47,595 nt of DNA from contig NZ_JADEWT010000039.1 of the NCBI RefSeq assembly GCF_015207505.1, positions 1-47,595 on the forward strand, in the 5' to 3' direction. Each line of letters opens with the position of its first letter. Positions within the stretch are counted from its first letter, which is position 1. The notes beneath the pieces are model-generated. The model had not been told where the DNA came from. It made no database searches and saw only the letters and a list, made by a program, of their open reading frames with translations. The position numbers and the translations under genes are program-made. The DNA comes from Tychonema sp. LEGE 06208. GTDB taxonomy: Bacteria; Cyanobacteriota; Cyanobacteriia; Cyanobacteriales; Microcoleaceae. Of this stretch, positions 2,490-31,633 are shown piece by piece.

Positions 2490-5400
2490 ATGAAAACAAC
2501 CGTAGATTTACAACCAAAACTAACTGCTGTAGACTTCGATCCATTTGCAGGCGGAGAACTTTTTGCTTGCGTACCCGCGACGGAATCGCAAAAGGAAATC
2601 TGGATTGCCGTGCAAATGGAAGACGAGGCAAATTGCGCTTACAACGAGTCGATGTGTCTGCGATTGCAAGGAAATCTCGACGTTGAATCTCTCCGATTTT
2701 CAATTCAAGAATTGGTGCAGCGGCACGAGTCGCTGCGGACAACATTTAGCCCGGACGGATCGACTCTTTGCATTGCCTCTGCGATCGAAATTGATATTCC
2801 TTTGATAGATTTGTCAATTTTCGACGATCGCGATCGCGAATCTAAATTAGCACATTTGCGCCGCCAAGAAGTCGAGCAGCCTTTCAATTTAGTGCGCGGG
2901 CCGCTGTTTCGCAGTCAAATTATCAAGCTGCAAGAACAGGAATACATCGTTATTCTCACCGGTCACCACATCATTTGCGATGGCTGGTCTTGGGGCATAT
3001 TATTCCCTGATTTGGGTGAAATTTATTCTGCAAAAAATCAAGGCTTAGCGGTCAATCTTCCACAGCCCGAAAGTTTTATAGAGTACGCAATTTTACAAGA
3101 AGAACAAGCAACAAGCCCCGAAGTTATTGCCGCTGAAAAGTATTGGTTAAATCAGTTTTCAGGCACGATTCCAGTGCTGGATTTGCCGACAGACAGAGCG
3201 CGGCCTCCTTTGAGAACTTACAAGGGTTCGCGGGAAGATTGGGAACTAAAGCCGGATTTGGTTGCTAACCTCAAACGCCAGGGAAAGAAAGCAGGGTGCA
3301 GTTTTTTTACAATTCTCTTGGCTGGATTTGAAGCTTTTATCTACCGCTTGTGCGGACAAGAGGATTTGGTTGTCGGAATGCCGGCGGCGGGACAGCTTGT
3401 TGGGGGCAAAGACAAGCTTGCCGGACACTGCGTAAGTTTCTTGCCGTTGCGTACCCAAATTAACGGAGAACAATCTTTTATCGATTATTTGCGATCGCGC
3501 CGCACTGGAGTTTTAGATGCGATCGAACGCCAGCAGCTAACCTTCGGTACTCTGGTCAAAAAACTAGCAATGCCACGGGATTTCAGTCGCATTCCGCTAG
3601 TGCCTGTAAGTTTTAATTTGGATGTGCAGCTTACGGAAGATCAGCTGAATTTTGAAGGTTTTAAGGCTGAAGTCTTCTCGAATCCGAGAACTTATGAAAA
3701 TTTTGAATGGGCGGTGAATGCCAGCGAAACAAAAAACAAACTCGTGCTGGAGTGTCAGTACAATACTAACTTATTTGATGCTGCGACAATCCGCCGCCGC
3801 ATGGCTGAATTTGAGGTGCTGTTAGAGGGAATAGTTGCTAATCCAAACCAGAAGATTTCAGAATTGCCCCTGCTAACCGAAGCAGAGGGATACCAGTTGC
3901 TAGCGGAATGGAACAACACCACAAAAGAATATCCCTCTGATAAGTGTATCCACCAGTTGTTTGAGGAACAGGTTACGCGATCGCCCGATGCCATTGCGGT
4001 GGTTTTTGAAGATAAACAGTTGACCTACCTCCAACTCAACCAACGGGCTAACAAAATAGCACATCACTTGAGAACTCTGGGTGTGGGGCCAGAAGTTTCG
4101 GTGGGTATCTGCGTGGAGCGCTCCCTAGAGATGGTAGTGGGATTGCTTGGTATCCTCAAGGCTGGTGGTCCTTATGTGCCGCTTGACCCAGAGTATCCTA
4201 CTGAACGCTTGAGCTTTATGCTCCAAAACGCTCAAGTTAAGGTGCTGTTGACGCAACAGCGACTGGTTGAGAAGCTACCTGAATATGAAGCGCAGTTTGT
4301 CTATTTAGATACTGATTGGCAGGTGATTTCCCGGTCGAGTGAGGAGAATCCAATCACTGGTGTGCAAGCAACTAACTTGGCTTATGTGATTTATACTTCC
4401 GGTTCTACAGGTCAGCCTAAGGGAGTAGCAATGAATCATTTTTCTCTTTGCAATCTGATCTTGTGGCAACTTCAAAATACGACAATTTCTAGCGGGGCAA
4501 AAACTCTACAATTTGCTCCTATCAGCTTTGATGTCTCCTTCCAAGAAATGTTTTCTACTTGGTGTTCTGGAGGGACATTACTCTTGATTGCAGAGGAATT
4601 ACGACGAGATGCATTCGCTTTGTTAGGTTTACTCCAAGAAAAAGCTGTTGAGAGACTGTTTGTCCCCTTTGTTGCCTTACAGCAAATAGCTGAGGTAGCT
4701 ACTGGTAGTGAATTAGTTACCAGCTATTTACGGGAAATCATTACTGCTGGTGAACAGTTGCAGATTACTCCCGCCATTTCTAGCTGGTTGAGCAAGCTAA
4801 CTGATTGTACTTTGCACAATCATTATGGACCATCGGAGAGCCATGTTGTCACCACTTTTACCCTCACTAATTCAGCGGACAATTGGCCGATACTTCCTCC
4901 TATCGGTCGTCCCATCGCTAACACGCAAATTTATATTCTCGACCGCCTCCTAAAGCCAGTCCCCATCGGCGTATCGGGTGAACTACACATCGGCGGTGCT
5001 GGCGTCGCCCGAGGCTACCTAAACCGTCCCGATTTGACTGATGAAAAATTTATCCCTAACCCCTTCACCACTCAATCTGGGTCACGCCTCTACAAAACTG
5101 GCGATAAAGCCCGTTACCTAAGTGACGGTAACATCGAGTTTCTAGGTCGCATCGACAATCAAGTCAAGATTCGCGGCTTCCGCATCGAACTGGGGGAAAT
5201 TGAGGCAGCGATCGCGCAGTACCCCGGTGTGCGAGAAACTGTAGTTATAGTGCGAGAAGATGTTCCAGGTCAAAAATATCTGGCAGTTTACATTGTCGCC
5301 AACAACTCGTCCACGATCGCCACTAGCAACTTGCGGGGTTTTCTCAAAGAGAAACTGCCTGATTACATGATACCGGGAGCATTGGTGATGTTGAATGCCC

Positions 5401-8400
5401 TGCCACTAACCCCCAGTGGCAAGGTAGACCGTCGCGCCTTACCCGCACCAGAATTTCGACCCGAACTGCAACGGTCATTAGTAGCCCCAAGAACTCCTAT
5501 TGAAGAGATGCTAGCCAGCATTTGGGCGGATGTCCTGAGAATTGAAATTGTGGGCGTTCACCACAATTTCTTTGAACTGGGCGGACATTCCTTATTAGCC
5601 ACTCAAGTAATTTCGAGAGTGCGCGATACCTTTGCCGTCGAATTAGCGCTACGCAGTTTGTTTGAAGCACCCACCATTGCCGAATTCGCCTCTCGGGTAG
5701 AGAATTCGCTCTCTAACGGACAATCACAAGAAGCAGAGCCGCTTCTACCAATTCCAAGGTCAGAGTCCATCCCACTATCCTTTGCTCAACAGCGACTGTG
5801 GTTTCTCGACCAGTTACAGCCCAACAGTCCCTTTTACAACATCCCGGTAGCGTTGCGTCTTTTCGGTCAGCTCAATATAACGGCGCTACAGAACAGCATC
5901 AACGAAATTATCGGGCGTCACGAAGCCTTACGCACCAACTTCGCGACAGTAGAGGGAGAACCCATTCAGGTTATCGCTTCAACTCACAGTTGGGAACTAC
6001 AAGTAGTCAGCTTGTTGCACCTAGGAGAAAGCGAGCGAGAAATTGAAGCGCAACGATGGGTAAATGAAGAAGCAAATCGACCTTTTAACCTGGAACGAGA
6101 GCTTTTGCTCCGAGGTTTGGTGCTGCAGCTAGGTGAAACCGAGTACGTCTTGCTGCTTACCATGCACCACATTATTTCTGATGGGTGGTCTGTAGGCGTG
6201 TTCTTGCGAGAGTTAGCAGAACTTTACAAAGCCAACAGCACGGGCATGGCTCCGGTTTTACCAGAATTATCCGTACAGTACGCCGACTTTGCTCTTTGGC
6301 AGCGGCAGTGGCTGCAAGGAGAAATACTCGAAACCCAGCTTGACTACTGGAAGCAACAACTATTGGACGCTCCAGCTTTATTAGAATTACCCACAGACCG
6401 AGCGCGACCGCCTGTTCAAACCTTCCGGGGAGGATATTACTATGCAGCCCTTTCCCTGGAATTGAGCGCGGAACTTACCGCTCTGGGCAAGCGAGCGGGA
6501 GTCACTCTGTTTATGACCCTTTTGGCGGCATTTCAGACATTACTCTGCCGCTATACAAACAGTGAGGACATCGTAGTGGGTACGCCTGTAGCTGGTCGCA
6601 ATCGGCGGGAAATTGAAGGACTAATTGGCTTTTTTGTCAATACCTTAGTGCTGCGTACCGACCTCGGCGACCACCCCAGTTTTGAGGAGTTACTCGCCAG
6701 AGTTCGGGAAGTCGCGCTGCAAGCTTACGCGCATCAAGACTTGCCCTTCGAGCAGTTGGTAGAGGCATTGCAACCAACGCGAGACTTAAGCTATACGCCT
6801 CTGTTCCAGGTGATGTTTGTCCTCGACGACGCTTTGGTTAATTCTGTAGAACTGCCTGAGTTATCGGTAAGTTCTTATTCCGTGGAATTCGGCACTTCCA
6901 AGTTCGACCTGACTCTATCAATAGAGAATACGGCTTCTGGATTGATAGGAGCATGGGAATACAATACTGATTTGTTTGATGGGTCAACGATCGCTCGGAT
7001 GGCGGGACATTTCCAGACTTTACTAGAAGTGATCGCAGCCAATCCAAAGCAGAAGATTTCAGAATTGCCCCTGCTGACAGAAATAGAACAACAGCAGCTA
7101 TTAATTGAGTGGAATAACACTCACACAAATTATCCCGAATCAGCCTGCATTCACCAACTATTTGAAGTTCAAGCAGAACAAACTCCCGACGCTGTAGCCT
7201 TAGTTTTTGGCGAACAACAGCTAACCTACCAACAGCTAAATTGTCGGGCCAATCAATTAGCACATTACTTGCAAACTTTGGGGGCTGGGCCGGAAGTTTT
7301 AATCGGTGTTTGTTTCGATCGCTCTATGGATGCGATCGTCTCGCTTTTGGCTGTTCTCAAAGCCGGATCTGCTTACCTGCCTTTAGATCCAGCTTATCCC
7401 AAAGAGCGTCTGGAATTCATGCTGTCAGATGCCGCCCTATCCGTGCTGTTAACTCAACAGCATTTAACAGAAAAGCTGCCCGATACTGAAGCAAAAATAG
7501 TTTGTTTGGAGCAGGTGCGGGAGGAAATAAACGCACAAAGTGAGGACAATCTTGCCCATCTCGCGCAGGCGGAAAATCTGGCTTATGTCATGTATACTTC
7601 CGGTTCCACAGGCAAACCAAAAGGCGTTTGCGTCGTCCACCGTGGGGTAGTGCGGTTAGTTAAAAACACCGATTATGCGAGCTTCAGCGCCGCCGAAGTC
7701 TTCCTGCAACTGGCTCCGATTTCCTTTGACGCTTCGACGCTGGAAATTTGGGGGGCGCTGCTTAACGGGGCGCAACTGGTTGTCTTTCCCCCAGGAACTC
7801 CATCTTTAGCAGAGCTGGGAGAGGCGATTCGCTTATACAATGTGACTATTTTGTGGTTGACCGCCGGACTGTTTCACTTGATGGTGGACGATCGCATTGA
7901 GGATTTAAAGGGTGTGCGCCAACTGTTGGCAGGCGGTGACGTTTTATCTGTTCCCCACGTCCAGAAGTTGCTGCGAGAGGCTCCAAACTGCCAATTAATT
8001 AACGGCTACGGGCCGACAGAAAATACGACTTTTACTTGCTGCGCGGCGATCGCCCCTGACAGTCAAATTAGCAATTCGGTGCCGATCGGCAGACCGATCG
8101 CCAATACTCAAGTTTACATACTCGATCGCCATTTGCAGCCAGTGCCGATCGGCGTTCCGGGCGAGTTGTATGCAGGCGGTGCAGGCTTAGCCAGAGGCTA
8201 CCTCAACCGCCCGGATTTAACAGCCGAAAAATTCATTCCAAATCCTTTGATCGCCAACCAAGAAGATAGATGGAAAAATGCCGAAGGGCGATCGGTTTCA
8301 AGCCTTCTTCCTTCTGCAAATCACCTTTACAAAACAGGGGATTTAGCCCGCTATCTGCCCGATGGTAACATCGAGTATTTGGGACGCATTGACAATCAAG

Positions 8401-9797
8401 TAAAGATTCGCGGCTTCCGCATTGAAATAGGAGAAATTGAGGCCGTACTGGCCGGACATCTAGATGTGAGTCAAGTGTCTGTGGCAGTTCAGTTAGATGC
8501 TTCGGGGAACAAATGTCTCGCAGCTTATGTAGTCCCGGGCCCAGGCAAAATTCTCGCCGCCAATACCCTGCGGAGTTTCCTGCAAAAAAGACTGCCAGAC
8601 TACATGATACCCGCTGGGTTTGTCTTCCTCGACGCTTTGCCCTTGAACCCCAACGGCAAAGTTGACCGCCGCGCTTTGGCAAGTCAAAAGTGGCAATCTG
8701 CCAGGGTTGCACCCGATCAAACAATTGCTGTTGCCCCCCGGGACAAATTAGAACTCCAAGTGAAGCAAATTTGGGAACAAGTTTTAGGGATCAATTCAAT
8801 TGGCATCAGGGACAATTTCTTCGAGATAGGAGGGCATTCGCTGTTAGCGGCGCGTTTGTTAGCTGAAATCGAAAAAATATTCGGCAAAAAACTGCCGCTT
8901 TCTACTATTTTCCAATCGCCAACCGTTGAGCAATTGGCTGATATTCTCCGCGAACCGGAATGGTCTTCACCCTCTCCATCAATGGTAGTGATTCAACCGG
9001 GAACAGGGAGTTACAAACCTCCTCTATTCTGCATTCACGTACTCGGTAGGGGATTGGAATTTTACCGTCCTTTACTGAATCATTTGGAGCAATCGCAGGC
9101 TATTTTGGGACTGTCTACCCAGATTATGGATGAAAAGCTGGCTCCTCCCAATCGAGTTGAGGAATTGGCAGCTTATTACATCAAAGAAATGCAAGTTTTC
9201 CAGCCGCACGGGCCTTATTTTCTGTTAGGAGTATCTTTTGGCGGGACAGTAGCTTTTGAGATAGCTAGGCAACTTGATGCCAAAGGTGAAAAGGTAGCTT
9301 TGCTGGGATTGTTGGATACCTACGGCCCGGATGCTTTTAAAAAATCGTCTGAAAAAAAACGCGGTCAACGCGCGATGAAAGTTTTACACATGACTCCCGG
9401 TGTATTTCTGGGGAAAACTCAGAGCAATCTGGCGGGAAAAGTCGAAAGTATTACTAATCAAATATGGAGGATTTCTTCTAAGTTTTACCAAGCGATCGGG
9501 CGTCCCTTGCCGATCGAGCTGGAAAACTTCACTCATCGAGAACTCAATGAAGAGGCATTGAGACACTATGTAGCAGGAGTTTACTCGGGTGGAGCGACTA
9601 TCTTCAAAGCGGTTGAGAGTGCCATCTTGTTTGATGCCGATCCCGCATTGGGTTGGGGCGAGGTAGTTACAGGAGGAATAGAGATTCACGAGATCCCTAG
9701 CGATCATTTGGGGATGTTACAAGAGCCGCACGTTCGGATACTGGCGGAAAAATTGCAAGCCGCAGTCGATCGCGCTCGGCAAATGAATTGTCAATAA
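2490..9797 (+). CDS. Nonribosomal peptide synthetase, C-A-PCP-C-A-PCP-TE
   Basis: Terminal two-module NRPS of 2435 residues. Seen, in order: C1 (about 20-450, HHIICDG at 159-165); A1 (about 480-985, YTSGSTGQPKG at 635-645); PCP1 (S1034 in LGGHSLL); C2 (about 1095-1530, HHIISDG at 1226-1232, LCL-like); A2 (about 1545-2075, YTSGSTGKPKG at 1702-1712); PCP2 (S2117 in IGGHSLL); and a type I thioesterase (about 2180-2430; GVSFG with S2249, probable D2276, H2406). Pockets read by alignment to GrsA: A1 D-V-Q-F-I-A-H-V-V, a proline-type code; A2 D-A-L-W-L-G-G-T-F, valine-like. There are no epimerase or methyltransferase domains. C1 resembles condensation domains that follow AMT in hybrid systems, so it likely accepts the beta-aminoacyl chain from the preceding protein. 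The start follows a 175-base gap with no obvious Shine-Dalgarno. Release could be hydrolytic or cyclising. Confidence 0.97.
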   Translation: MKTTVDLQPKLTAVDFDPFAGGELFACVPATESQKEIWIAVQMEDEANCAYNESMCLRLQGNLDVESLRFSIQELVQRHESLRTTFSPDGSTLCIASAIEIDIPLIDLSIFDDRDRESKLAHLRRQEVEQPFNLVRGPLFRSQIIKLQEQEYIVILTGHHIICDGWSWGILFPDLGEIYSAKNQGLAVNLPQPESFIEYAILQEEQATSPEVIAAEKYWLNQFSGTIPVLDLPTDRARPPLRTYKGSREDWELKPDLVANLKRQGKKAGCSFFTILLAGFEAFIYRLCGQEDLVVGMPAAGQLVGGKDKLAGHCVSFLPLRTQINGEQSFIDYLRSRRTGVLDAIERQQLTFGTLVKKLAMPRDFSRIPLVPVSFNLDVQLTEDQLNFEGFKAEVFSNPRTYENFEWAVNASETKNKLVLECQYNTNLFDAATIRRRMAEFEVLLEGIVANPNQKISELPLLTEAEGYQLLAEWNNTTKEYPSDKCIHQLFEEQVTRSPDAIAVVFEDKQLTYLQLNQRANKIAHHLRTLGVGPEVSVGICVERSLEMVVGLLGILKAGGPYVPLDPEYPTERLSFMLQNAQVKVLLTQQRLVEKLPEYEAQFVYLDTDWQVISRSSEENPITGVQATNLAYVIYTSGSTGQPKGVAMNHFSLCNLILWQLQNTTISSGAKTLQFAPISFDVSFQEMFSTWCSGGTLLLIAEELRRDAFALLGLLQEKAVERLFVPFVALQQIAEVATGSELVTSYLREIITAGEQLQITPAISSWLSKLTDCTLHNHYGPSESHVVTTFTLTNSADNWPILPPIGRPIANTQIYILDRLLKPVPIGVSGELHIGGAGVARGYLNRPDLTDEKFIPNPFTTQSGSRLYKTGDKARYLSDGNIEFLGRIDNQVKIRGFRIELGEIEAAIAQYPGVRETVVIVREDVPGQKYLAVYIVANNSSTIATSNLRGFLKEKLPDYMIPGALVMLNALPLTPSGKVDRRALPAPEFRPELQRSLVAPRTPIEEMLASIWADVLRIEIVGVHHNFFELGGHSLLATQVISRVRDTFAVELALRSLFEAPTIAEFASRVENSLSNGQSQEAEPLLPIPRSESIPLSFAQQRLWFLDQLQPNSPFYNIPVALRLFGQLNITALQNSINEIIGRHEALRTNFATVEGEPIQVIASTHSWELQVVSLLHLGESEREIEAQRWVNEEANRPFNLERELLLRGLVLQLGETEYVLLLTMHHIISDGWSVGVFLRELAELYKANSTGMAPVLPELSVQYADFALWQRQWLQGEILETQLDYWKQQLLDAPALLELPTDRARPPVQTFRGGYYYAALSLELSAELTALGKRAGVTLFMTLLAAFQTLLCRYTNSEDIVVGTPVAGRNRREIEGLIGFFVNTLVLRTDLGDHPSFEELLARVREVALQAYAHQDLPFEQLVEALQPTRDLSYTPLFQVMFVLDDALVNSVELPELSVSSYSVEFGTSKFDLTLSIENTASGLIGAWEYNTDLFDGSTIARMAGHFQTLLEVIAANPKQKISELPLLTEIEQQQLLIEWNNTHTNYPESACIHQLFEVQAEQTPDAVALVFGEQQLTYQQLNCRANQLAHYLQTLGAGPEVLIGVCFDRSMDAIVSLLAVLKAGSAYLPLDPAYPKERLEFMLSDAALSVLLTQQHLTEKLPDTEAKIVCLEQVREEINAQSEDNLAHLAQAENLAYVMYTSGSTGKPKGVCVVHRGVVRLVKNTDYASFSAAEVFLQLAPISFDASTLEIWGALLNGAQLVVFPPGTPSLAELGEAIRLYNVTILWLTAGLFHLMVDDRIEDLKGVRQLLAGGDVLSVPHVQKLLREAPNCQLINGYGPTENTTFTCCAAIAPDSQISNSVPIGRPIANTQVYILDRHLQPVPIGVPGELYAGGAGLARGYLNRPDLTAEKFIPNPLIANQEDRWKNAEGRSVSSLLPSANHLYKTGDLARYLPDGNIEYLGRIDNQVKIRGFRIEIGEIEAVLAGHLDVSQVSVAVQLDASGNKCLAAYVVPGPGKILAANTLRSFLQKRLPDYMIPAGFVFLDALPLNPNGKVDRRALASQKWQSARVAPDQTIAVAPRDKLELQVKQIWEQVLGINSIGIRDNFFEIGGHSLLAARLLAEIEKIFGKKLPLSTIFQSPTVEQLADILREPEWSSPSPSMVVIQPGTGSYKPPLFCIHVLGRGLEFYRPLLNHLEQSQAILGLSTQIMDEKLAPPNRVEELAAYYIKEMQVFQPHGPYFLLGVSFGGTVAFEIARQLDAKGEKVALLGLLDTYGPDAFKKSSEKKRGQRAMKVLHMTPGVFLGKTQSNLAGKVESITNQIWRISSKFYQAIGRPLPIELENFTHRELNEEALRHYVAGVYSGGATIFKAVESAILFDADPALGWGEVVTGGIEIHEIPSDHLGMLQEPHVRILAEKLQAAVDRARQMNCQ

Positions 9798-9805
9798 TGT
9801 TAAGT

Positions 9806-10034
9806 CTTTTGGTTATTGGTTATTGGTTATTGGTTATTGGTTGTTGGTTATTGGTTATTGGTTGTTGGTTATTTGTTGTTGGTTATTTGTTGTTGGTTAT
9901 TGATTGACAGTTATTGGTTAACAAATAACAAATAACAGATAACAGATAACAAATAACAGATAACAGATAACAGATAACAGATAACAAATAACAGATAACA
10001 GATAACAGATAACAGTCAACAGTCAACAGTCAAC
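9806..10034. repeat. STRR block between convergent genes, able to fold back on itself
   Basis: A 5' half of TTGGTTA/TTGTTGG-type heptamers faces a 3' half of AACAAAT/AACAGAT heptamers and ends in AACAGTC copies. TTATTTGTT in the first half is complementary to AACAAATAA in the second, so the transcript from either side could form a long AU-rich hairpin. It fills the whole gap between the NRPS stop and the cobS stop and may serve as a two-way terminator. Confidence 0.8.
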
Positions 10035-10037
10035 TGT

Positions 10038-10835
10038 TCACCCTTCCAAAGCCACCAAAAGACACAGCAACAAAACCTCCGTCCACTCCACTACAGCACC
10101 GTAAGTATCGCCCGTATGGCCGCCCAAACGGTGGTTAAACCAGGCTCCGACAAAAATTCCGATCGCACTTCCGCCCAAAGCCATCCCCACCGCCAACAGC
10201 CACCGATCGCCATCCAAGACAACTTGCAGCACGCTCAAACTTAGCAACAACAGAACTCCTGGGATAAAATCAAAAGGTGAATAAATCGATTCTTTATGAA
10301 AAGCTCCCTTACCCTCCGGGCGGAGATAGGGATAGCGGGCGATCGCCACCAGTTGGCCCCACCTCCCCCAACCCGCCACACCCATCAAAGCCAGCCACCG
10401 ATAGTGATTCAAATCCGAAAGAGCGACAGTTTTCAGCAGGACGATCGCGATCGCAGCCATCGCCCCAAAAGCCCCTGTAACGCTGTCCCGCATCACTTCC
10501 AGTCGGCGCACAGGGTCGGGTACGGCAAGCCCGTCCGCCGCGTCCATAGCCCCATCTAGGTGCAGCCCCCCAGTGATGGCGATGCCCAAAACTACCACCA
10601 AGGCCGATCGAGTCAGGGCAGGCATACCGAACAACTGCAACCCAATATCCGCCAGTCCCAGCATCCCGCCGATCAAAAGCCCGATCGCCGGAGCCAAACG
10701 AGCAATGCCCCGGAACTCCAAAGTCCAAGACACAGGCACCGGCAAACAAGTATAAAACGCGACTGCAGCTGCCATAGCAGCGCCTTGATTCCGGAAAAAG
10801 TCGATCGTAGAGCGAACCAATTGATCATCCACCAT
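10038..10835 (-). CDS. cobS: Cobalamin synthase (adenosylcobinamide-GDP ribazoletransferase)
   Basis: Joins adenosylcobinamide-GDP to alpha-ribazole (phosphate) in the last steps of cobamide synthesis, at the membrane. Seen: 265 residues, normal for CobS/CobV; the family signature [12 protein letters not shown] followed by [16 protein letters not shown]; and several hydrophobic segments across the protein. Starts at ATG 10835, with no strong ribosome site. It is convergent with the NRPS, and its stop codon sits a few bases from the repeat block. No other cobalamin gene is in the window, and no cobalamin riboswitch is evident in the 259-base upstream gap. Confidence 0.95.
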
Positions 10836-24655: not shown

Positions 24656-27600
24656 TTACCCCCCGTCTTGCTTCGACAAAATCAAATTGAGCGCGTTCAA
24701 CTCGTTAGAGCTCAAAAGGTATTTATCGGTAAAAATCTTTTCGCGGCTTTGTTCTAAACTGTAGCTTCTAAACACGATAAACGGGAATTCGCGGTACTTA
24801 TGCCCGATCGGGATTATACTGTCTATCGGATAGGTCGATCGCACAGCAGCCGACAAAATATCCCGAAACATCAGATCCTCCGGTTCCTCCAGCTTGGTGT
24901 CAGCAAAATATTCCTGCATCGCATCCCCGCTGACAAAAGCAAACAAAGGTATGGCATAATAGCGATCGAACTGCTGGCTTTGCTGCTGGAAATACTGAGT
25001 TTTCTCCACATCGCCGCTGAGAAATTGCAAAAGCTCGATCGCACCTCCTCTAATTGCCGATCGTAAATTCTCAGGAGAAGACTTGCTATCCCTAATACGG
25101 TACATTTTTTGCAGCAGTTTACCCTCAACACATTTCTTAATTTCCCGATCCAGCCGTATCTGGTAGTTTTCCTCCAAACTCTTAGCCGCCAAAGGAACCA
25201 CCAAAAAACTACCGCAAACATGACCAATCTCCAGATTACCCCAACCAAGCAAACCCTCAAGAGGATTGCACGCCTGCAAAAACTTCCGATTAAAATCCTC
25301 CCGCATTTTCAAGTAAGAATCGCCCGTTTTAGGAGAACAATCAGAATTTTGCAAAACAAACTCCCCGCGACTCAAAAGCTCCTCCAGCCCCGCAGAAACC
25401 TCCCCTAGCAACATATTTCCAGGGTGGCTGCGGTGTTCGCTTTTCAAAACCTTAATTAGACTCGCCATCTTGCTGCTAAAAGTATCGCCCACAGCCGAAA
25501 CCGACTTACCGCCAATCGGAATCATCAAAAACTTTTCCCTACCCAAATATCCGTATCCCAAAATCCGCGTCATCACCGCAGTCTTCAGAATCAGCAGCAA
25601 ATTCAACAAATTCAACTTACTTTCTTGTAGCGAAAGTTTCGGATCGTCAGCATAGTAAAATGCCGTATCCGACAAATAAAAAACCAACTCCTTAGCTTCA
25701 CCATCCAGCGTCTTACCATCATCATCTTCCCCGCGCCCCCGATAAATCACCTGAATCACCTCCATCAGATTTTTCTCAATCTGAAAGCGGGGAATATCAA
25801 CTAAAATGTGCTTAGTTTTCGGGAAAGACAAGCCGCGACTTCCCGATGCAGTCATGAAAATTACTTTAACTGTGTTTTTGCACTTTTGTATCTGCTGTTT
25901 TTCCTCTTCCGAGATATTCGCGTGCACTTCCAGATAATCCGTATAGCGCTTAAATTCCCGCTGATTTTGAATTTTCTCGATCAGTTCTGCCAATCTTCGC
26001 TTATCCTGAATGTAGACAATAATTTGTTCCACACCAGGTATTGCTAATCGGCGATCGATATCTGCAACTATTTCCGCTTGCACAGATTTCACTAAATTAT
26101 TCTTAAGATGCAAAGAAGTATCTTCATTGAATTTCACGGCCTCTACAAAAACCTTATAAATTATATCTAAACTGCTAGCGGGATAGGAATTCGTATTGAT
26201 GACAGTAGCAGCCAACCGTTTAAATTCAAAAGGAACAACCTGTAAAGGCGGAATTTCCTGAGCAGTTTTTGGCAGTTGTTTGAAATATATTTTATCCGGT
26301 TCCGGTGAAGTATCGCTGAGGTGTTGTTTGATGACATCCGGGTCAACAATCGAAGCATCTGCTACAATAATTTTAGTATTAAAACCCTGTTTTGGGTCGT
26401 GCAACTGATATTTGTTAACCAGCTTGCCAATTCCATGCAGAAACTCAACCCCGCCGTCGTCTCCGGTAATTTCATCTATCATAATGAAAATGTGTTTAAT
26501 CCGGCTGGATATTTCTTGCATCTTAGCAGGAATGACTTGTTTATTCTGTTTGTTGTAAGTATCTTGAAATATCTTTTCTAAATGTTGGAGAGTATTTTGA
26601 TTAGTTTCTGTCACCTTCAAAGATTGGATAGAAACCGCAGCTACTATATTGTTCGATGTCTGGCAGCGAATCAGCGAATGTATTGCTTGAGAAACGCTAT
26701 TTAGCACTCCATTAGTCTTAGAATTACTAGGTTTAATTACCGTTTCTCCCTTTTTTTCGAGTTGCGGTTTGTGATGTTGATCCCGCAGTTTTTCAGCGCC
26801 GTTTTTAATAAAGCTGACAGTTGTTTGCTGGAAATCTTGGTGATAGTTATTAGCTGCGTAATTGACGGTGCATTTTCCGGCATTGTTGGCGATAATGTCG
26901 GCACTCGTGTTTATACAAAACAAGCTGTCGTCGCACAATAAACCTGTTTGGCGATCGATAAATTTTTCGATAATATCTAAATTAACTTGCTTGCGGGGAC
27001 TGACGTAAAGAAATAGAAACCCATCGTTTACATGAGTTTTCAGAAAATGTGCGATCGCCGTTGTTTTCCCAATTCCCGGATTCCCCGTTAAAAAAATATA
27101 AACTTCCTCAGATTGCAGCGATTTCACAATCAATTCAGCATGAGCGTTTCTCAGATGCAGCCCGCGAGAAATTCCCAAATCATCTGCCAATTTATCTGAT
27201 ATAATATCTAGGGAACTGACAAAGTTATCGATCCGCTCTGCATGACATACAGGTGTCGAACTTTTGCCGATTGTTAACAAAGCATCAACAAATTTTTTGC
27301 CTTGCTGAAAACTGCGAGCCGCGTTGCATTGAATTGTATCTAAAACATCAGCGCGAGCATCGCTAATTTCTTCTTTTCGAGTTTCATGCTTGTAAATTTT
27401 GGCACAAGTCGCCAAGAGGTCAATTTTATCATTGCGGAGGGAAATTGCGTTAATTGTGCGATCGCTATAACCGACAACATTCAACAAAACCTCAGCACCA
27501 GCCGGAATAATATTAGTTGTTTGCAGAAAACCGTAAAAGCTATCAGCGTAGCTACCCGCCTGAATCAACTTAGTGCTTTCCTTATCTTTATACTTAAAAG

Positions 27601-28324
27601 CCGTAAAATAGCGGCTTAAATCCTCCGAAAAATTTATCCCTAAAGTGCTCGTATCGATTCGCAAATTAGAAAAAACACTTTTCGATCGCAAATAGCTAAT
27701 TTCTCTGAGCAAAGACTTCCGCATCACCTCTATTTCGTTCAGATTATCGACTTTTCCCGAAACAAACGGGGGAGCAAAAACAGATAAATCAACGCACAGA
27801 ATTCTAAAATCTCTACCATTCTGCAACAAAATCAGCGTATCAGCTTGCAAAAACTCCCCTTTTTTCGAGTAGCGGCGGATGTACCGATTAATTTCCTCCT
27901 CCGATAAACTATGACTGGCAGTTTTTAACTGAGATAATACCTGTTTAAACCCTGCATTTTGATTTTCTTTATTATAAGTTCTAATACTGTTAGCCTCGCT
28001 AAAACTGCACTGACAGTACAAAATTTGCGCTCTCTTTAAATTCCAGCCCGTAGATTGGAGATACTCCCGAAAAAAATTCAACCCACCAATAAAGCCTTTT
28101 TGAACAAAAAACAGGCTCCATTTCTCAACAATTTTAGCATCTAAACTAGCCAGCAGATTCGCTTCCCTAGTAATTTCCGCCATCATTTTTGGCAACTTGA
28201 GTTGCTGCAAATCCAATCGATAAGAATCTCCCAAATTGTGAGCTATCTTTTCTCGCTGAATATATGCCAGAATACCAATGTTGAATCCAACCTCAAACAG
28301 CCGTCCAAAATCTTCACCAATCAT
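24656..28324 (-). CDS. Large P-loop helicase-like ATPase, uncharacterised
   Basis: 1222 residues. Seen: Walker A FLTGNPGIGKTT (K420); a motif Ia-like FLYVSPRKQVN; Walker B MIDE (D617, E618); a motif IV-like IIVYIQDKRRL; a motif V-like FMTASGSRGLSFPKTKH; and a motif VI-like EVIQVIYRGRG (R862, R864). The order fits an SF2 nucleic-acid helicase with a ~200-residue insertion between motifs I and II. Residues 1-380 match no domain I know; D162 and D178 (QADTLILL...ILCVDLS) loosely resemble a PD-(D/E)XK core but lack the lysine. The C-terminal ~330 residues are also unassigned. Its ATG shares one base with the stop of the partner gene (TAATG), so the two are probably translated together. A defence or DNA/RNA-processing role is inference. 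Confidence 0.85.
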   Translation of the reverse strand: MIGEDFGRLFEVGFNIGILAYIQREKIAHNLGDSYRLDLQQLKLPKMMAEITREANLLASLDAKIVEKWSLFFVQKGFIGGLNFFREYLQSTGWNLKRAQILYCQCSFSEANSIRTYNKENQNAGFKQVLSQLKTASHSLSEEEINRYIRRYSKKGEFLQADTLILLQNGRDFRILCVDLSVFAPPFVSGKVDNLNEIEVMRKSLLREISYLRSKSVFSNLRIDTSTLGINFSEDLSRYFTAFKYKDKESTKLIQAGSYADSFYGFLQTTNIIPAGAEVLLNVVGYSDRTINAISLRNDKIDLLATCAKIYKHETRKEEISDARADVLDTIQCNAARSFQQGKKFVDALLTIGKSSTPVCHAERIDNFVSSLDIISDKLADDLGISRGLHLRNAHAELIVKSLQSEEVYIFLTGNPGIGKTTAIAHFLKTHVNDGFLFLYVSPRKQVNLDIIEKFIDRQTGLLCDDSLFCINTSADIIANNAGKCTVNYAANNYHQDFQQTTVSFIKNGAEKLRDQHHKPQLEKKGETVIKPSNSKTNGVLNSVSQAIHSLIRCQTSNNIVAAVSIQSLKVTETNQNTLQHLEKIFQDTYNKQNKQVIPAKMQEISSRIKHIFIMIDEITGDDGGVEFLHGIGKLVNKYQLHDPKQGFNTKIIVADASIVDPDVIKQHLSDTSPEPDKIYFKQLPKTAQEIPPLQVVPFEFKRLAATVINTNSYPASSLDIIYKVFVEAVKFNEDTSLHLKNNLVKSVQAEIVADIDRRLAIPGVEQIIVYIQDKRRLAELIEKIQNQREFKRYTDYLEVHANISEEEKQQIQKCKNTVKVIFMTASGSRGLSFPKTKHILVDIPRFQIEKNLMEVIQVIYRGRGEDDDGKTLDGEAKELVFYLSDTAFYYADDPKLSLQESKLNLLNLLLILKTAVMTRILGYGYLGREKFLMIPIGGKSVSAVGDTFSSKMASLIKVLKSEHRSHPGNMLLGEVSAGLEELLSRGEFVLQNSDCSPKTGDSYLKMREDFNRKFLQACNPLEGLLGWGNLEIGHVCGSFLVVPLAAKSLEENYQIRLDREIKKCVEGKLLQKMYRIRDSKSSPENLRSAIRGGAIELLQFLSGDVEKTQYFQQQSQQFDRYYAIPLFAFVSGDAMQEYFADTKLEEPEDLMFRDILSAAVRSTYPIDSIIPIGHKYREFPFIVFRSYSLEQSREKIFTDKYLLSSNELNALNLILSKQDGG

Positions 28325-31300
28325 TATTGTGTACCTCCCTCGCTGACATTCAATACTTCTCTTACCTTATTCAAAAAAGCCAAAGAATTAAAATCTGCAC
28401 TACCGCCAGCATGACTAAATACAGACAAAGCACCAACCGATTCATCGCCAATAATCCGCTCGTAAGGATCGAGTTTTAAACTAATATTTTGACGGGCTTC
28501 ATACCGAGAAAAGTGAAACATGGTTAAATAGTGCAGCAAAGTATTTTTGATGTCGCCATCATAAATCAAACCTTCGTGAATGTCTCGATCGTCCAAAACG
28601 CCTCCGTATATGTGCAACAGCGTCGAGTAGGAAATCACACCGTTATAAAAGTTTTTCTCCTCCTTAACTTTAATGCCGTTAAACAAGTTAAAAAACATCA
28701 CAGCTTGTTGATTGGTATCAGCAAACAAATTTTCCAGCTCCATTGTATCTTGAATGTAAAAAGATTTTCCTTTATCGCCTAGGAAACTGCGAACATAGTA
28801 TTTATCAAAAAATATCGGATAAATTTTAATATCCCGCCGATTTCCTTTCAAAGTTCGGAGCAATTTTTTGGACATGAAAGACAATTCCTCATCTTCATCA
28901 GTCTTGGTAATATGCAGCGTACTCATGTAAGGTGCTTGGGAAATATATGCAAAATTCCGATATCCTTGTCGGTAAAGCTGACTCATGACATCTTCCAGAA
29001 TTACAGGTTCACTATAAAGACGGCTGACACTGTAATTCTCGGAAAGTGTTTTCAGTAATTCGACTTGAATTGTGCAGTCATCGAGGCGATTGATTCCCAC
29101 AACTTCTCCAATTAAGCAGGCTTGTCTTTGAAATCGGTTTCGATCGCCTTTTTTCGCATCGCTATCGCGACTGGAAACGACAATAATTGCTAACTTGTCC
29201 AACTCAGAAGCTAGCCGCACATTCTCGAAATAAAACTTTTTGGGAAGGATGGAATACATGGAACTCAAACCGTTACGAATTGTGTAAGAGTTTGGTGTTT
29301 TCACAATCCGAAATCCCTGAGAAGTTGAGCGCTGTTTTTCACTCAAAATGTGAGACAATGTTTTAGAAAGCTTAGCAATAAATTCTTCTGAGGGCGAAGG
29401 GTTTTTATTGTCGCCTTCGTGAAGTCTCACCATCGGAATAAATAAGTTTTTGTCTGTATTTTTCAGCAAAATTATCAGACAGATATAAGATAGCAGCAAC
29501 AGGGTAAATTTATAAACAAAAATCGCCGCAGGTTGCAAACCTTTTGCACCGCTGTGTAGTCGTCTATTGTCATAGGGAAACAAGATTAATTTTGTCTTAA
29601 AATGCTTGTCGTAAATTGCTCTGGAACGATCGGCTTTGGGTGCAAAAAGTACAGGCAAAATATCAACATCTTTTATGTTATACTCCATGCTGAAATTTTG
29701 GCGCTCTTCAGTTGGAAAATAGCGGACATCTTCTATAGTAATATTGACTGGTAGCTGACAAATAGATAGGCAATCGACACTGGGTTCTTTGACAGTAATA
29801 TAATGGAGCGTTTGCTTGTAGTTTCGCTCCATAATATCATTAAAAAATCTACGCTGATTCAAAATATTGTCAATATCCTGTACCAGACCCATTTTGAGGT
29901 TGATGTGTCTTGTTTCTGTGCGATCGGGCAAAATTGTCTGCCGTTCCAGAAAGCTTTTCAACAGTTTTCTCAGATGGTTTATTTTATATTTAACATTGAC
30001 TTCGTTAAACCTATTCACAAAATTTCGGAAAAGTCTCTTTTTGACTTCCTCCTTATCGCGACTCAATACTGTTTTGATTAGGTGTTCAAAACTAGGAATA
30101 GGATTAAACTCAAGTTCTAATTCAGGGTTATAATTGTCCGTTTCTGGAGTGTGGGGAGATGCAAAAATAAAGTGATATAAGAATGCAATTTTTAACACCT
30201 TCCGTACAAATGTTTCGGGGTTAGAATCTTCCTCAAATTCTGCTTTATGTTCTTCACTATCTGGATTGAGCAGGTTCAGATAATATTCAAATACGTCCTT
30301 TCCACCACGCGATTGAACTGAGTTATCAAATTTGACTTTGAGACCAAATATAAATTTACGTTCGCTTTGAGAACTGTCGGTGCTTTCTCCCAAGCAACCT
30401 GCTACAATCGGAATAATTGGCAGTGCATCTAAAACTTCCGCTCTGGCAAAAATCTCTCTGTAATTAACTGAAACACCAGCATAATTAACCTCATAATCAC
30501 CATCTGCTTTATTGTTGTCGTTGATGAAATCTTCCATCAATCTGAGGCGGCGGATCAAATCTTCTAAATAGATGATGCCTGCGGTATCTGTACTGCTGGG
30601 GCGGATGTGTTCTAGGAGATACTCCAAATAAGTAATTTTAGCTTCTTTTTGGATTTTCCCCAGAGTTTCTTTGTCTACCAGTCGGATCAATTTGTGAAAA
30701 TCAGAGTCGGGATTTTTAACCATCTCATCAAGAAGATCGTTAAGTGCTTGTTTGTCATCGTTAGTCTCGGCATTTTCATTGATGTAATTTTCCAAACCTT
30801 GCTTTAGTTCTTGCTCAAAAATATCAGTATTTCGGACAGTAACTGTCAACTTGTGAAATTTTAAAGTCGCACGGCTGCCAGAACCTGAATCTTGCAAAGT
30901 TAGCCTTTCTTTTTCTAAAGAAGTGTGGCGTTTGCCAAAATCGTATTTGAACCCTAACTCTTGGCCGCTTCCGCGAAAAGAGGGTGAATCTAAAGGACTA
31001 ATCAAACTAGCGATGAATTTTTCAACAGAAGTATTTGGGGGCAATTTGGAGGCTAATTGCTGTTGCAAAGACTGTTGAATTTGCCTGACTTGAGTGCCAA
31101 AATGCTCTTCCACTTGCTGCGGAAAGTTGGCAGTGGCAGAGTGTGCTTGACGTTCAAAAGAACCCAAGGGTTGCCGTACTTGCTTGTTAGCAACATCCGC
31201 AGCAATGGCATCAATATCAATTATTAATTGGTGGCTTTTATTCCATACTATAAATGGGTTTTTTGTCTGCAAAATCTCTAAAAGTTTGTCCAGCAAATCG

Positions 31301-31350
31301 CCATAATCTGCTGGCACAAGTTCGTCGTCGCCTAGTCTTAAGATGTTCAC
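28324..31350 (-). CDS. Large uncharacterised partner of the helicase-like protein
   Basis: About 1008 residues from GTG 31350 (NILRLGDDELVPADY). I chose it because it starts 13 bases after the YciI stop; ATG 31413 would overlap the YciI gene by 50 bases. I recognise no domain. The N-terminal ~330 residues are charged and helical. A central region has a 19-residue hydrophobic run (IFVYKFTLLLLSYICLIIL). The C-terminal third alternates strands and helices: KLAIIVVSSRDSD, RQACLIGEVVGI, YRNFAYISQAPYMSTLHI, IKIYPIFFDKYYVRSF. It ends four bases into a coupled TAATG start for the helicase. By eye the two genes are more A/T-rich than pheT or tgt. An obligate two-protein complex is my inference. Confidence 0.82.
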   Translation of the reverse strand: MNILRLGDDELVPADYGDLLDKLLEILQTKNPFIVWNKSHQLIIDIDAIAADVANKQVRQPLGSFERQAHSATANFPQQVEEHFGTQVRQIQQSLQQQLASKLPPNTSVEKFIASLISPLDSPSFRGSGQELGFKYDFGKRHTSLEKERLTLQDSGSGSRATLKFHKLTVTVRNTDIFEQELKQGLENYINENAETNDDKQALNDLLDEMVKNPDSDFHKLIRLVDKETLGKIQKEAKITYLEYLLEHIRPSSTDTAGIIYLEDLIRRLRLMEDFINDNNKADGDYEVNYAGVSVNYREIFARAEVLDALPIIPIVAGCLGESTDSSQSERKFIFGLKVKFDNSVQSRGGKDVFEYYLNLLNPDSEEHKAEFEEDSNPETFVRKVLKIAFLYHFIFASPHTPETDNYNPELELEFNPIPSFEHLIKTVLSRDKEEVKKRLFRNFVNRFNEVNVKYKINHLRKLLKSFLERQTILPDRTETRHINLKMGLVQDIDNILNQRRFFNDIMERNYKQTLHYITVKEPSVDCLSICQLPVNITIEDVRYFPTEERQNFSMEYNIKDVDILPVLFAPKADRSRAIYDKHFKTKLILFPYDNRRLHSGAKGLQPAAIFVYKFTLLLLSYICLIILLKNTDKNLFIPMVRLHEGDNKNPSPSEEFIAKLSKTLSHILSEKQRSTSQGFRIVKTPNSYTIRNGLSSMYSILPKKFYFENVRLASELDKLAIIVVSSRDSDAKKGDRNRFQRQACLIGEVVGINRLDDCTIQVELLKTLSENYSVSRLYSEPVILEDVMSQLYRQGYRNFAYISQAPYMSTLHITKTDEDEELSFMSKKLLRTLKGNRRDIKIYPIFFDKYYVRSFLGDKGKSFYIQDTMELENLFADTNQQAVMFFNLFNGIKVKEEKNFYNGVISYSTLLHIYGGVLDDRDIHEGLIYDGDIKNTLLHYLTMFHFSRYEARQNISLKLDPYERIIGDESVGALSVFSHAGGSADFNSLAFLNKVREVLNVSEGGTQ

Positions 31351-31363
31351 CCTGTTAATTCCG

Positions 31364-31633
31364 TTAAAATGCTTGAATCCACTCTTTGACGTTGTACTCA
31401 GTCCAAATCCCATTTAGCCAATAAGGATCGGTTTCAACTAAGTCTCGCACTGCTGTTTCGTCTGCGGCTTCGTAAATCGCGAAAACTTTTGTTAAGTCTT
31501 TTGTGGGGCCGATGGTAATCAATACACCCGATTCTTTTTGCTTGGCAAGTCCGGCTAGGTGCGCGTCTCGAAATGGTGCGCGTTTTTCGAGAACGTCTTG
31601 GCAGTAACTTCCCCACATTACATATTTCGTCAC
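31364..31633 (-). CDS. YciI family protein
   Basis: 89 residues: TKYVMWGSYCQDV, FRDAHLAGLAKQKESGVLITIGP, VRDLVETDPYWLNGIWTEYNV. A small ferredoxin-like dimer; the conserved His in RDAHL is the putative catalytic residue of YciI proteins, whose reaction is unclear. The frame is open to 31810, but I start at GTG 31633, which gives the family length. The downstream partner gene begins 13 bases after its stop, so it may head that operon, though YciI-like genes of this type are widespread in cyanobacteria on their own. Confidence 0.85.
   Translation of the reverse strand: MTKYVMWGSYCQDVLEKRAPFRDAHLAGLAKQKESGVLITIGPTKDLTKVFAIYEAADETAVRDLVETDPYWLNGIWTEYNVKEWIQAF

Follow-up and report, generated by a model that had tools for sequence, protein, structure and literature searches.

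The closest described counterparts of the gene pair reported here are defence systems that include a helicase. Hachiman consists of a nuclease (HamA) and a superfamily 2 (SF2) helicase (HamB), and in the passages of PMC12278908 that deal with its control the helicase restrains the nuclease until DNA damage is sensed. The pPIWI-RE module is presented in the relevant part of PMC3702460 as a triad of restriction endonuclease (REase), DinG and PIWI genes. DISARM, Druantia and Dpd use helicases of the YprA family, of which DUF1998 is typical, and this domain is lost in Dpd according to the sections of PMC12458937 on the family. The locus described here lies in a 47,595-nucleotide contig of the cyanobacterium Tychonema sp. 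LEGE 06208 (NZ_JADEWT010000039.1), called the window in its full length, and consists of two large genes, A and B. These genes overlap and are conserved together, and B carries an ATPase/helicase core along with invariant nuclease-like residues. The pair is probably an uncatalogued two-gene system directed against incoming DNA (phage or plasmid), in which A would recognise the target or regulate its partner and B would translocate and cut.

Organization and conservation of the gene pair

Both genes are encoded on the minus strand. Gene A (28324..31350) encodes 1008 amino acids and is the conserved partner of gene B (24656..28324), whose 1222 amino acids comprise a nuclease-like N-terminus, an SF2 helicase and a long C-terminal region. 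The stop of A and the start of B overlap in the sequence TAATG (28322..28326, minus strand), with one base common to both genes, and a ribosome-binding-like GGGAGG (28334-28339, minus strand) precedes the start of B by nine bases, giving the junction GGGAGG-TACACAA-TAATG. Coordinates and junction agree with an earlier note, which had described two large genes of ~1008 and 1222 residues joined in this way. The open reading frames (ORFs) listed for the minus strand are 24656-28324 (1222 aa) and 28324-31413 (1029 aa if translation begins at the first ATG); the start of A is placed at the GTG at 31350 because most homologues begin near residue 22 of the longer frame. The pair is also, as had been noticed by eye, more A/T-rich than its neighbours, with 38–45% GC in 1-kb bins compared to mostly 44–56% in the rest of the window, where a few other bins (9-10, 14-15, 18-19 and 41-42 kb) fall to 40–43%. 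It is flanked by an AhpC/TSA peroxiredoxin gene on one side and by a YCII-domain gene, a Uma2 gene and pheT on the other. The closest homologues are those of Tychonema sp. LEGE 07203 and LEGE 07199 (95% identity), with Microcoleus next. The ratio of nonsynonymous to synonymous substitution rates (dN/dS) is 0.15–0.29 in comparisons of A with four relatives from the same genus and of the N-terminal part of B with three, which denotes purifying selection, and A and B are therefore real genes that have been kept for function.

The association of the two genes is well conserved. After removal of four same-contig duplicates from the 126 copies of B examined, 122 distinct copies of at least 900 amino acids remain (loci L021-L169), and A lies upstream on the same strand in 116 of them. 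In 108 of these paired loci A is also at least 900 amino acids long, and in 90 the genes overlap or lie no more than 50 bases apart, most commonly with a 4-base (25 loci) or a 1-base overlap (19 loci); some overlaps are overstated because starts were taken as the first ATG, GTG or TTG. The six unpaired copies comprise one with A downstream of B (L023), one with A on another contig (L058, with A in L039), one at a contig edge (L144), one in which B contains internal stops (L054) and two in which no A was seen (L152, L158). The earlier note had held that homologues always found singly in a housekeeping context would argue against a new system; the copies of B counted here are mostly paired. When 905 neighbours from 81 loci were clustered, no third gene was shared by loci other than those of close relatives. 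A and B are predicted to form a complex.

Among 386 cyanobacterial genomes searched by profile, A was identified in 42, a count that takes in a decayed copy (G104) and a 70-aa fragment (G190), and B in 49; A is present in 26 of 142 genera. A second clade (clade 2) is formed by ten divergent cyanobacterial B proteins, each with an upstream A of ~1060 aa (nine full length, one a fragment). Alignment of clade 1 with clade 2 by hhalign indicates homology of A over 926 columns (98.9%, E 2.6e-17) and of B over 1165. The carriers among the Pseudomonadota are Beta- and Gammaproteobacteria and one alphaproteobacterial metagenome-assembled genome (MAG), and a partial pair occurs on one Chlorobiaceae MAG contig (L142). 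Three further contigs (L096, L097, L098) bear MAG labels of a planctomycete, Pseudomonadota and Propionibacterium, and have the same neighbours and B proteins that are 94–99% identical; they are probably misbinned, and no further phylum is claimed. Decayed, split, stop-bearing or fused copies are found in some cyanobacteria (L080 at about 6789-10331; L057; L054; L052), and all of these are evidence of repeated loss. In one locus (L056, 8455-15923) an insertion of ~7.5 kb, which includes a 1054-aa ORF and several small ORFs, separates A from B.

Protein B

By its motifs, the central portion of B (residues ~395-870; 25715..27142, minus strand) is an SF2 helicase. Motif I (K420), motif II (DE617-618) and motifs V/VI (SRGLSF and QVIYRGRG) are all present, as recognised in the earlier note, and among 44 divergent B proteins K420, D617, E618, R830, G831, F834, Q858, Y861, R862, R864 and G865 are invariant. 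The exceptions are S833, which is kept in at least 90% of the 44, and S829, which falls below that level. The B of the window scores 30.2 bits against AAA_22 and 27.7 bits against Helicase_C, above the respective Pfam cut-offs of 27 and 23.5, and both families are matched by 21 of 21 B members at E <= 1. DEAD-box structures are among the best PDB profile matches of the core (E about 1e-4). The core is followed by a conserved C-terminal region (residues 871-1222; 24659..25714, minus strand).

The N-terminal portion (residues 1-345; 27290..28324, minus strand) resembles, in its motifs, a variant PD-(D/E)XK nuclease domain. Eight residues are invariant in all 44 N-termini compared, at identities down to 15–20%: E11, G156, D162 (27839-27841), S181 (27782-27784) and, in the region of motif IV, K248 (27581-27583), K252 (27569-27571), Q255 (27560-27562) and Y259 (27548-27550). 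Position 179 (27788-27790) is acidic in every case, with D in 25 and E in 19. The motif I acid, the motif II aspartate and the (D/E) of motif III therefore all have counterparts as sequence positions. The motif III lysine does not, being replaced by serine in 44 of 44, and it is the motif IV lysines K248 and K252 that are present throughout. Such a loss of the motif III lysine with migration to motif IV is described, in the part of PMC1913061 that concerns it, for DUF506, DUF790 and DUF1626.

The N-terminus had earlier been said to match nothing. In profile searches this stands, as no model in Pfam, NCBIfam, PADLOC or PDB was matched, apart from weak single matches such as RE_SacI (E 0.022, one of 43 members); the motif layout, however, is PD-(D/E)XK-like. 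Alignment of the N-terminus with PDDEXK_1 and with Cas4 by hhalign was negative, as was the control of PDDEXK_1 against Cas4. In the nuclease control sets for hhalign the central ORF was picked automatically, and in L178 (88 aa), L194 (63 aa), L195, L208 and L209 it is probably in the wrong frame. The serine at the motif III position and the lack of a profile match to any nuclease family could instead indicate a DNA-binding or regulatory domain, in which case B would be only a translocase, controlled by A, and would strip or remodel the DNA or RNA of the invader. This alternative, which is compatible with a role in defence, is possible, if not the expected outcome. Against it, acidic and basic positions typical of motifs I–IV are invariant across very divergent clades, as catalysis would explain, and the documented lysine migration offers a precedent for the altered motif.

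Comparison with known systems

If the N-terminal domain of B is a nuclease, the pair would be a defence system of the nuclease–helicase kind, in an uncatalogued variant, and by analogy Hachiman would be its closest working model. Both have two genes, and both would combine a helicase with a PD-(D/E)XK-type nuclease that a partner controls. They differ in that the nuclease-like domain of the pair is fused to the helicase and carries the motif (D/E)xS rather than (D/E)XK, and in that the ~1000-aa partner has no known fold. Ten A and B proteins from several clades gave no match above noise in PADLOC, a library that presumably contains Hachiman models, and neither protein of the window matches DUF1837; by these features the pair is not Hachiman.

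The pPIWI-RE module likewise joins a helicase and an REase-type domain to a further component of ~1000 aa and has a patchy distribution, as far as the account in PMC3702460 extends. In contrast to that triad, the pair has two genes in the order A-B, and B lacks a conserved DinG-type cysteine cluster because no cysteine is invariant among the 44 proteins. On these features (gene order, gene number and conserved cysteines) the pair is not a pPIWI-RE module. The YprA-family systems share with it a large SF2 helicase within a defence locus, and a DISARM set adjoins one copy of the pair on a plasmid (below). The OB-CON-DUF1998 module of that family was not seen, as DUF1998 was matched neither by A or B of the window nor among the 25 of 61 Pfam families listed for 21 B proteins, and by this feature the pair is not a member of the family. 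With RecB- and Cas4-type nucleases the N-terminus of B shares G...D, (D/E)x and QxxxY, the last being a motif of RecB-type nucleases, and differs in the serine that replaces the motif III lysine and in having its lysines before QxxxY.

More generally, the pair has no model of its own in Pfam, NCBIfam or PADLOC, and the only genuine matches are those to the helicase and the P-loop; the two family listings behind these scans cover 25 of 30 and 25 of 61 families. Searches of the open-licence literature, itself only part of the literature, turned up no recognisable description of the pair. The earlier view that the pair cannot be equated with a named system thus holds for the features of pPIWI-RE and DISARM/YprA that were compared and, for BREX and Zorya, on the sole check of PADLOC, in which neither A nor B was matched.

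Protein A

Protein A was originally described as having no recognisable domain, and searches of Pfam, NCBIfam and PADLOC gave nothing above noise. PDB profile searches detected no relative of known fold; matches to 3lub (E 0.4-0.9) and to a designed TIM barrel (E 0.007, with no single significant stretch) were discarded as chance. The C-terminal ~290 residues (28327..29208, minus strand) show, by eye alone, the order strand-strand-strand-helix-strand-helix-strand, an arrangement taken here to be like that of PIWI. Pieces of this order include a first strand that ends in T-R-P-C-D, a strand with R-R-D-V-F-P-A-T-R-L after it and, at the end, an 'LPAxLxHV' helix in proteobacterial and clade-2 A proteins. 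These features might indicate that A belongs to the PIWI/Argonaute-like proteins as a very divergent, catalytically dead form, with B as its helicase–nuclease effector, which seems doubtful. Comparison of A by hhalign with 15 prokaryotic Argonaute (pAgo) and 4 pPIWI-RE proteins was negative, as was the control of pAgo against pPIWI-RE, and no Pfam pPIWI_RE or Piwi match was obtained in scans of A of the window, nine clade-2 A proteins and 61 A C-termini. Were the PIWI reading true, restriction by the pair would be directed by a guide, and prokaryotes would have another PIWI lineage in addition to pAgo and pPIWI-RE. The genome of the window also encodes a Piwi-domain protein (prokaryotic Argonaute) on another contig (C210:47922-48707, L217).

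The locus within the genus

Of the 28 other genomes of the same genus, 27 contain gene A, and the one without it is 87% complete. A shares a contig with both AhpC and pheT in 20 of these 27 genomes, and in the remaining seven at least one flanking gene is on a different contig or was not detected. Outside the genus, three genomes from other genera of the family (G030, G034, G035) have A, AhpC and pheT on different contigs; two without A (G031, G033) have both flanking genes, also on different contigs. Across 23 same-genus genomes the median identity to the genes of the window is 75% for A, compared to 92% for both pheT and AhpC (G002, G003, G014, G015 and G024, in which A or pheT is missing or incomplete, were omitted). 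Arrays of divergent types occur in four genomes, as A-B-A-B in one, where the last B is cut by the contig end, and as A-B-A' in three (L030 1-10174; L029 6717-16413; L032 6083-15794; L034 4114-13804). The A types of these arrays are 44–61% identical to A of the window, apart from one copy in L030 at 77%. Allelic pairs seem to be gained and lost at this locus. The fast divergence of A and the arrays at an old site suggest a rapid turnover of its content, which would be expected of an immune locus and fits a role in defence.

Near-universal presence in the genus, mostly at a single AhpC-pheT site, together with purifying selection on both genes, might instead point to a host machine for genome maintenance (repair, recombination or R-loop removal), with B as a helicase–nuclease and A as a DNA-binding scaffold. 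The results for phages are in keeping with this alternative, as two B queries found no match in 50,697 phage records and A had none in a scan of viral contigs. Such a function is nevertheless unlikely: A is restricted to the 42 of 386 cyanobacterial genomes noted above, several copies are decayed or fragmented, and A diverges faster than its flanking genes. Conjugative plasmids also carry the pair, and outside the cyanobacteria its neighbourhoods are richer in defence genes than control regions.

Plasmids and neighbouring genes

Eleven PLSDB plasmid records encode B, and six of these plasmids are typed as conjugative. Ten of the records also encode A, although in the Acetobacter plasmid the match to A spans only 22% of that query. 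Nine records were inspected, of which eight are annotated. On Trichormus plasmid C the DISARM genes drmA, a DUF1998 gene and drmC, with a cytosine methyltransferase, lie 12–22 kb from the pair. On Nostoc pNPM2 a DncV-like cyclase and an E2 protein (CBASS-type genes) lie ~10 kb away. Two Acinetobacter plasmids have HNH, WYL, HipA, HigB, Fic or DUF4011 genes nearby, and no named anti-phage system was found near the pair in Acetobacter, Aulosira, Microchaete or the broken Stanieria copy.

Carriage on 11 plasmids, with integrases or transposases nearby, might also mean that the pair serves plasmids or other mobile elements, for example in the exclusion of rivals or a step of conjugation, and that chromosomal copies are remnants. 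This is improbable. Seven of the 75 loci in genome contigs are on contigs >1 Mb, which argues that chromosomal copies are not rare; the copies of the window's genus are under purifying selection; and the exclusion of other elements would itself count as defence.

Several other features of these regions were observed. Directly after the pair on Trichormus plasmid C (L093, 15689-26458) are co-directional 'hypothetical' genes of 828 and 1853 aa and a DEAD/DEAH helicase, and these genes between the pair and DISARM are possibly another defence operon. On two different conjugative plasmids (L245, 2754-8709; L246, 2815-8755) the pair is preceded by a series of seven genes that correspond in size between the plasmids, the last of them annotated as dephospho-CoA kinase (coaE), which form a possible operon. 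Elsewhere in the window a plus-strand ORF of 2435 aa occupies 2490-9797.

The genes around the pair were compared with PADLOC models (threshold 1e-10) for 20 loci on long contigs (19 proteobacterial, 1 cyanobacterial), using the six nearest of the seven genes selected at each locus (120 of 140 in all). The control consisted of 120 genes taken from the same contigs at a distance of about 50 kb or more, in one stretch per locus. Genes near the pair matched 79 models and control genes 23, these being counts of models and not of proteins. Among the 25 of 79 models listed are BrxA (2 proteins), BrxB, a Type I methyltransferase (3e-251) and REase, a Type II REase and methyltransferase, ZacA and ZacB (Azaca), a TIR effector and WYL (2), as well as the less specific mad2 (3, generic) and four Cas12/TnpB-type models. 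In the control 14 of the 23 models are Cas12/TnpB-type, with one member each. A second set of 20 clade-1 cyanobacterial loci (111 genes, without a control of its own) matched 108 models. Of these, the 25 listed are mainly of the serine/threonine-kinase type (PD-T4-6, MkoA, C3a189), and Uma2 (PDC-S03) was matched for the first member. Genes of both kinds are common in cyanobacteria, and the clade-1 neighbourhoods are uninformative, with no clear defence signal. The neighbourhood survey proposed in the earlier note thus yields an enrichment at mainly proteobacterial loci and generic matches in clade-1 cyanobacteria.

Proposed function

The defence role suggested here draws on co-conservation of the pair across phyla, its carriage on plasmids and the enrichment of defence genes around its mainly proteobacterial relatives. 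Several points weigh against it. Among the models listed, the neighbours of clade-1 cyanobacterial loci match only generic ones, mainly of the kinase type, and within the window's genus the pair mostly occupies one ordinary chromosomal site between the AhpC/TSA gene and pheT, more in the manner of a settled gene than of a defence gene that travels. Six of the eight annotated plasmid regions are without a named anti-phage system, and the N-terminus of B has no profile match. The enrichment itself is expressed in models, 25 of 79 of which are listed; two of its loci (L165 and L166) are 98.6% identical and may account for models matched by two proteins, and two others (L113 and L136) come from one genome. 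The original proposal of an anti-phage system accordingly finds support in conservation, plasmids and enrichment, and does not extend so readily to the window's own genus, with its stable site, or to the clade-1 cyanobacterial loci, with their generic matches.

In the favoured defence mechanism, A would be translated in step with B and would bind or sense foreign or abnormal nucleic acid. It may hold B inactive until nucleic acid is bound and then release it. ATP-driven movement of B would bring its N-terminal domain to the target, where cutting by this nuclease-like domain would follow. In some genera, such as that of the window, the pair may have become a stable chromosomal resident.

More than 100 distinct copies of the pair occur in two main phyla and on conjugative plasmids, yet in the libraries searched only its helicase and P-loop portions are matched. 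If the pair protects cells, it would represent a helicase–nuclease design in which the active site is unusual and the partner, of ~1000 residues, has no known fold. The motor and nuclease-like residues of B that are named here make the defence idea directly testable.

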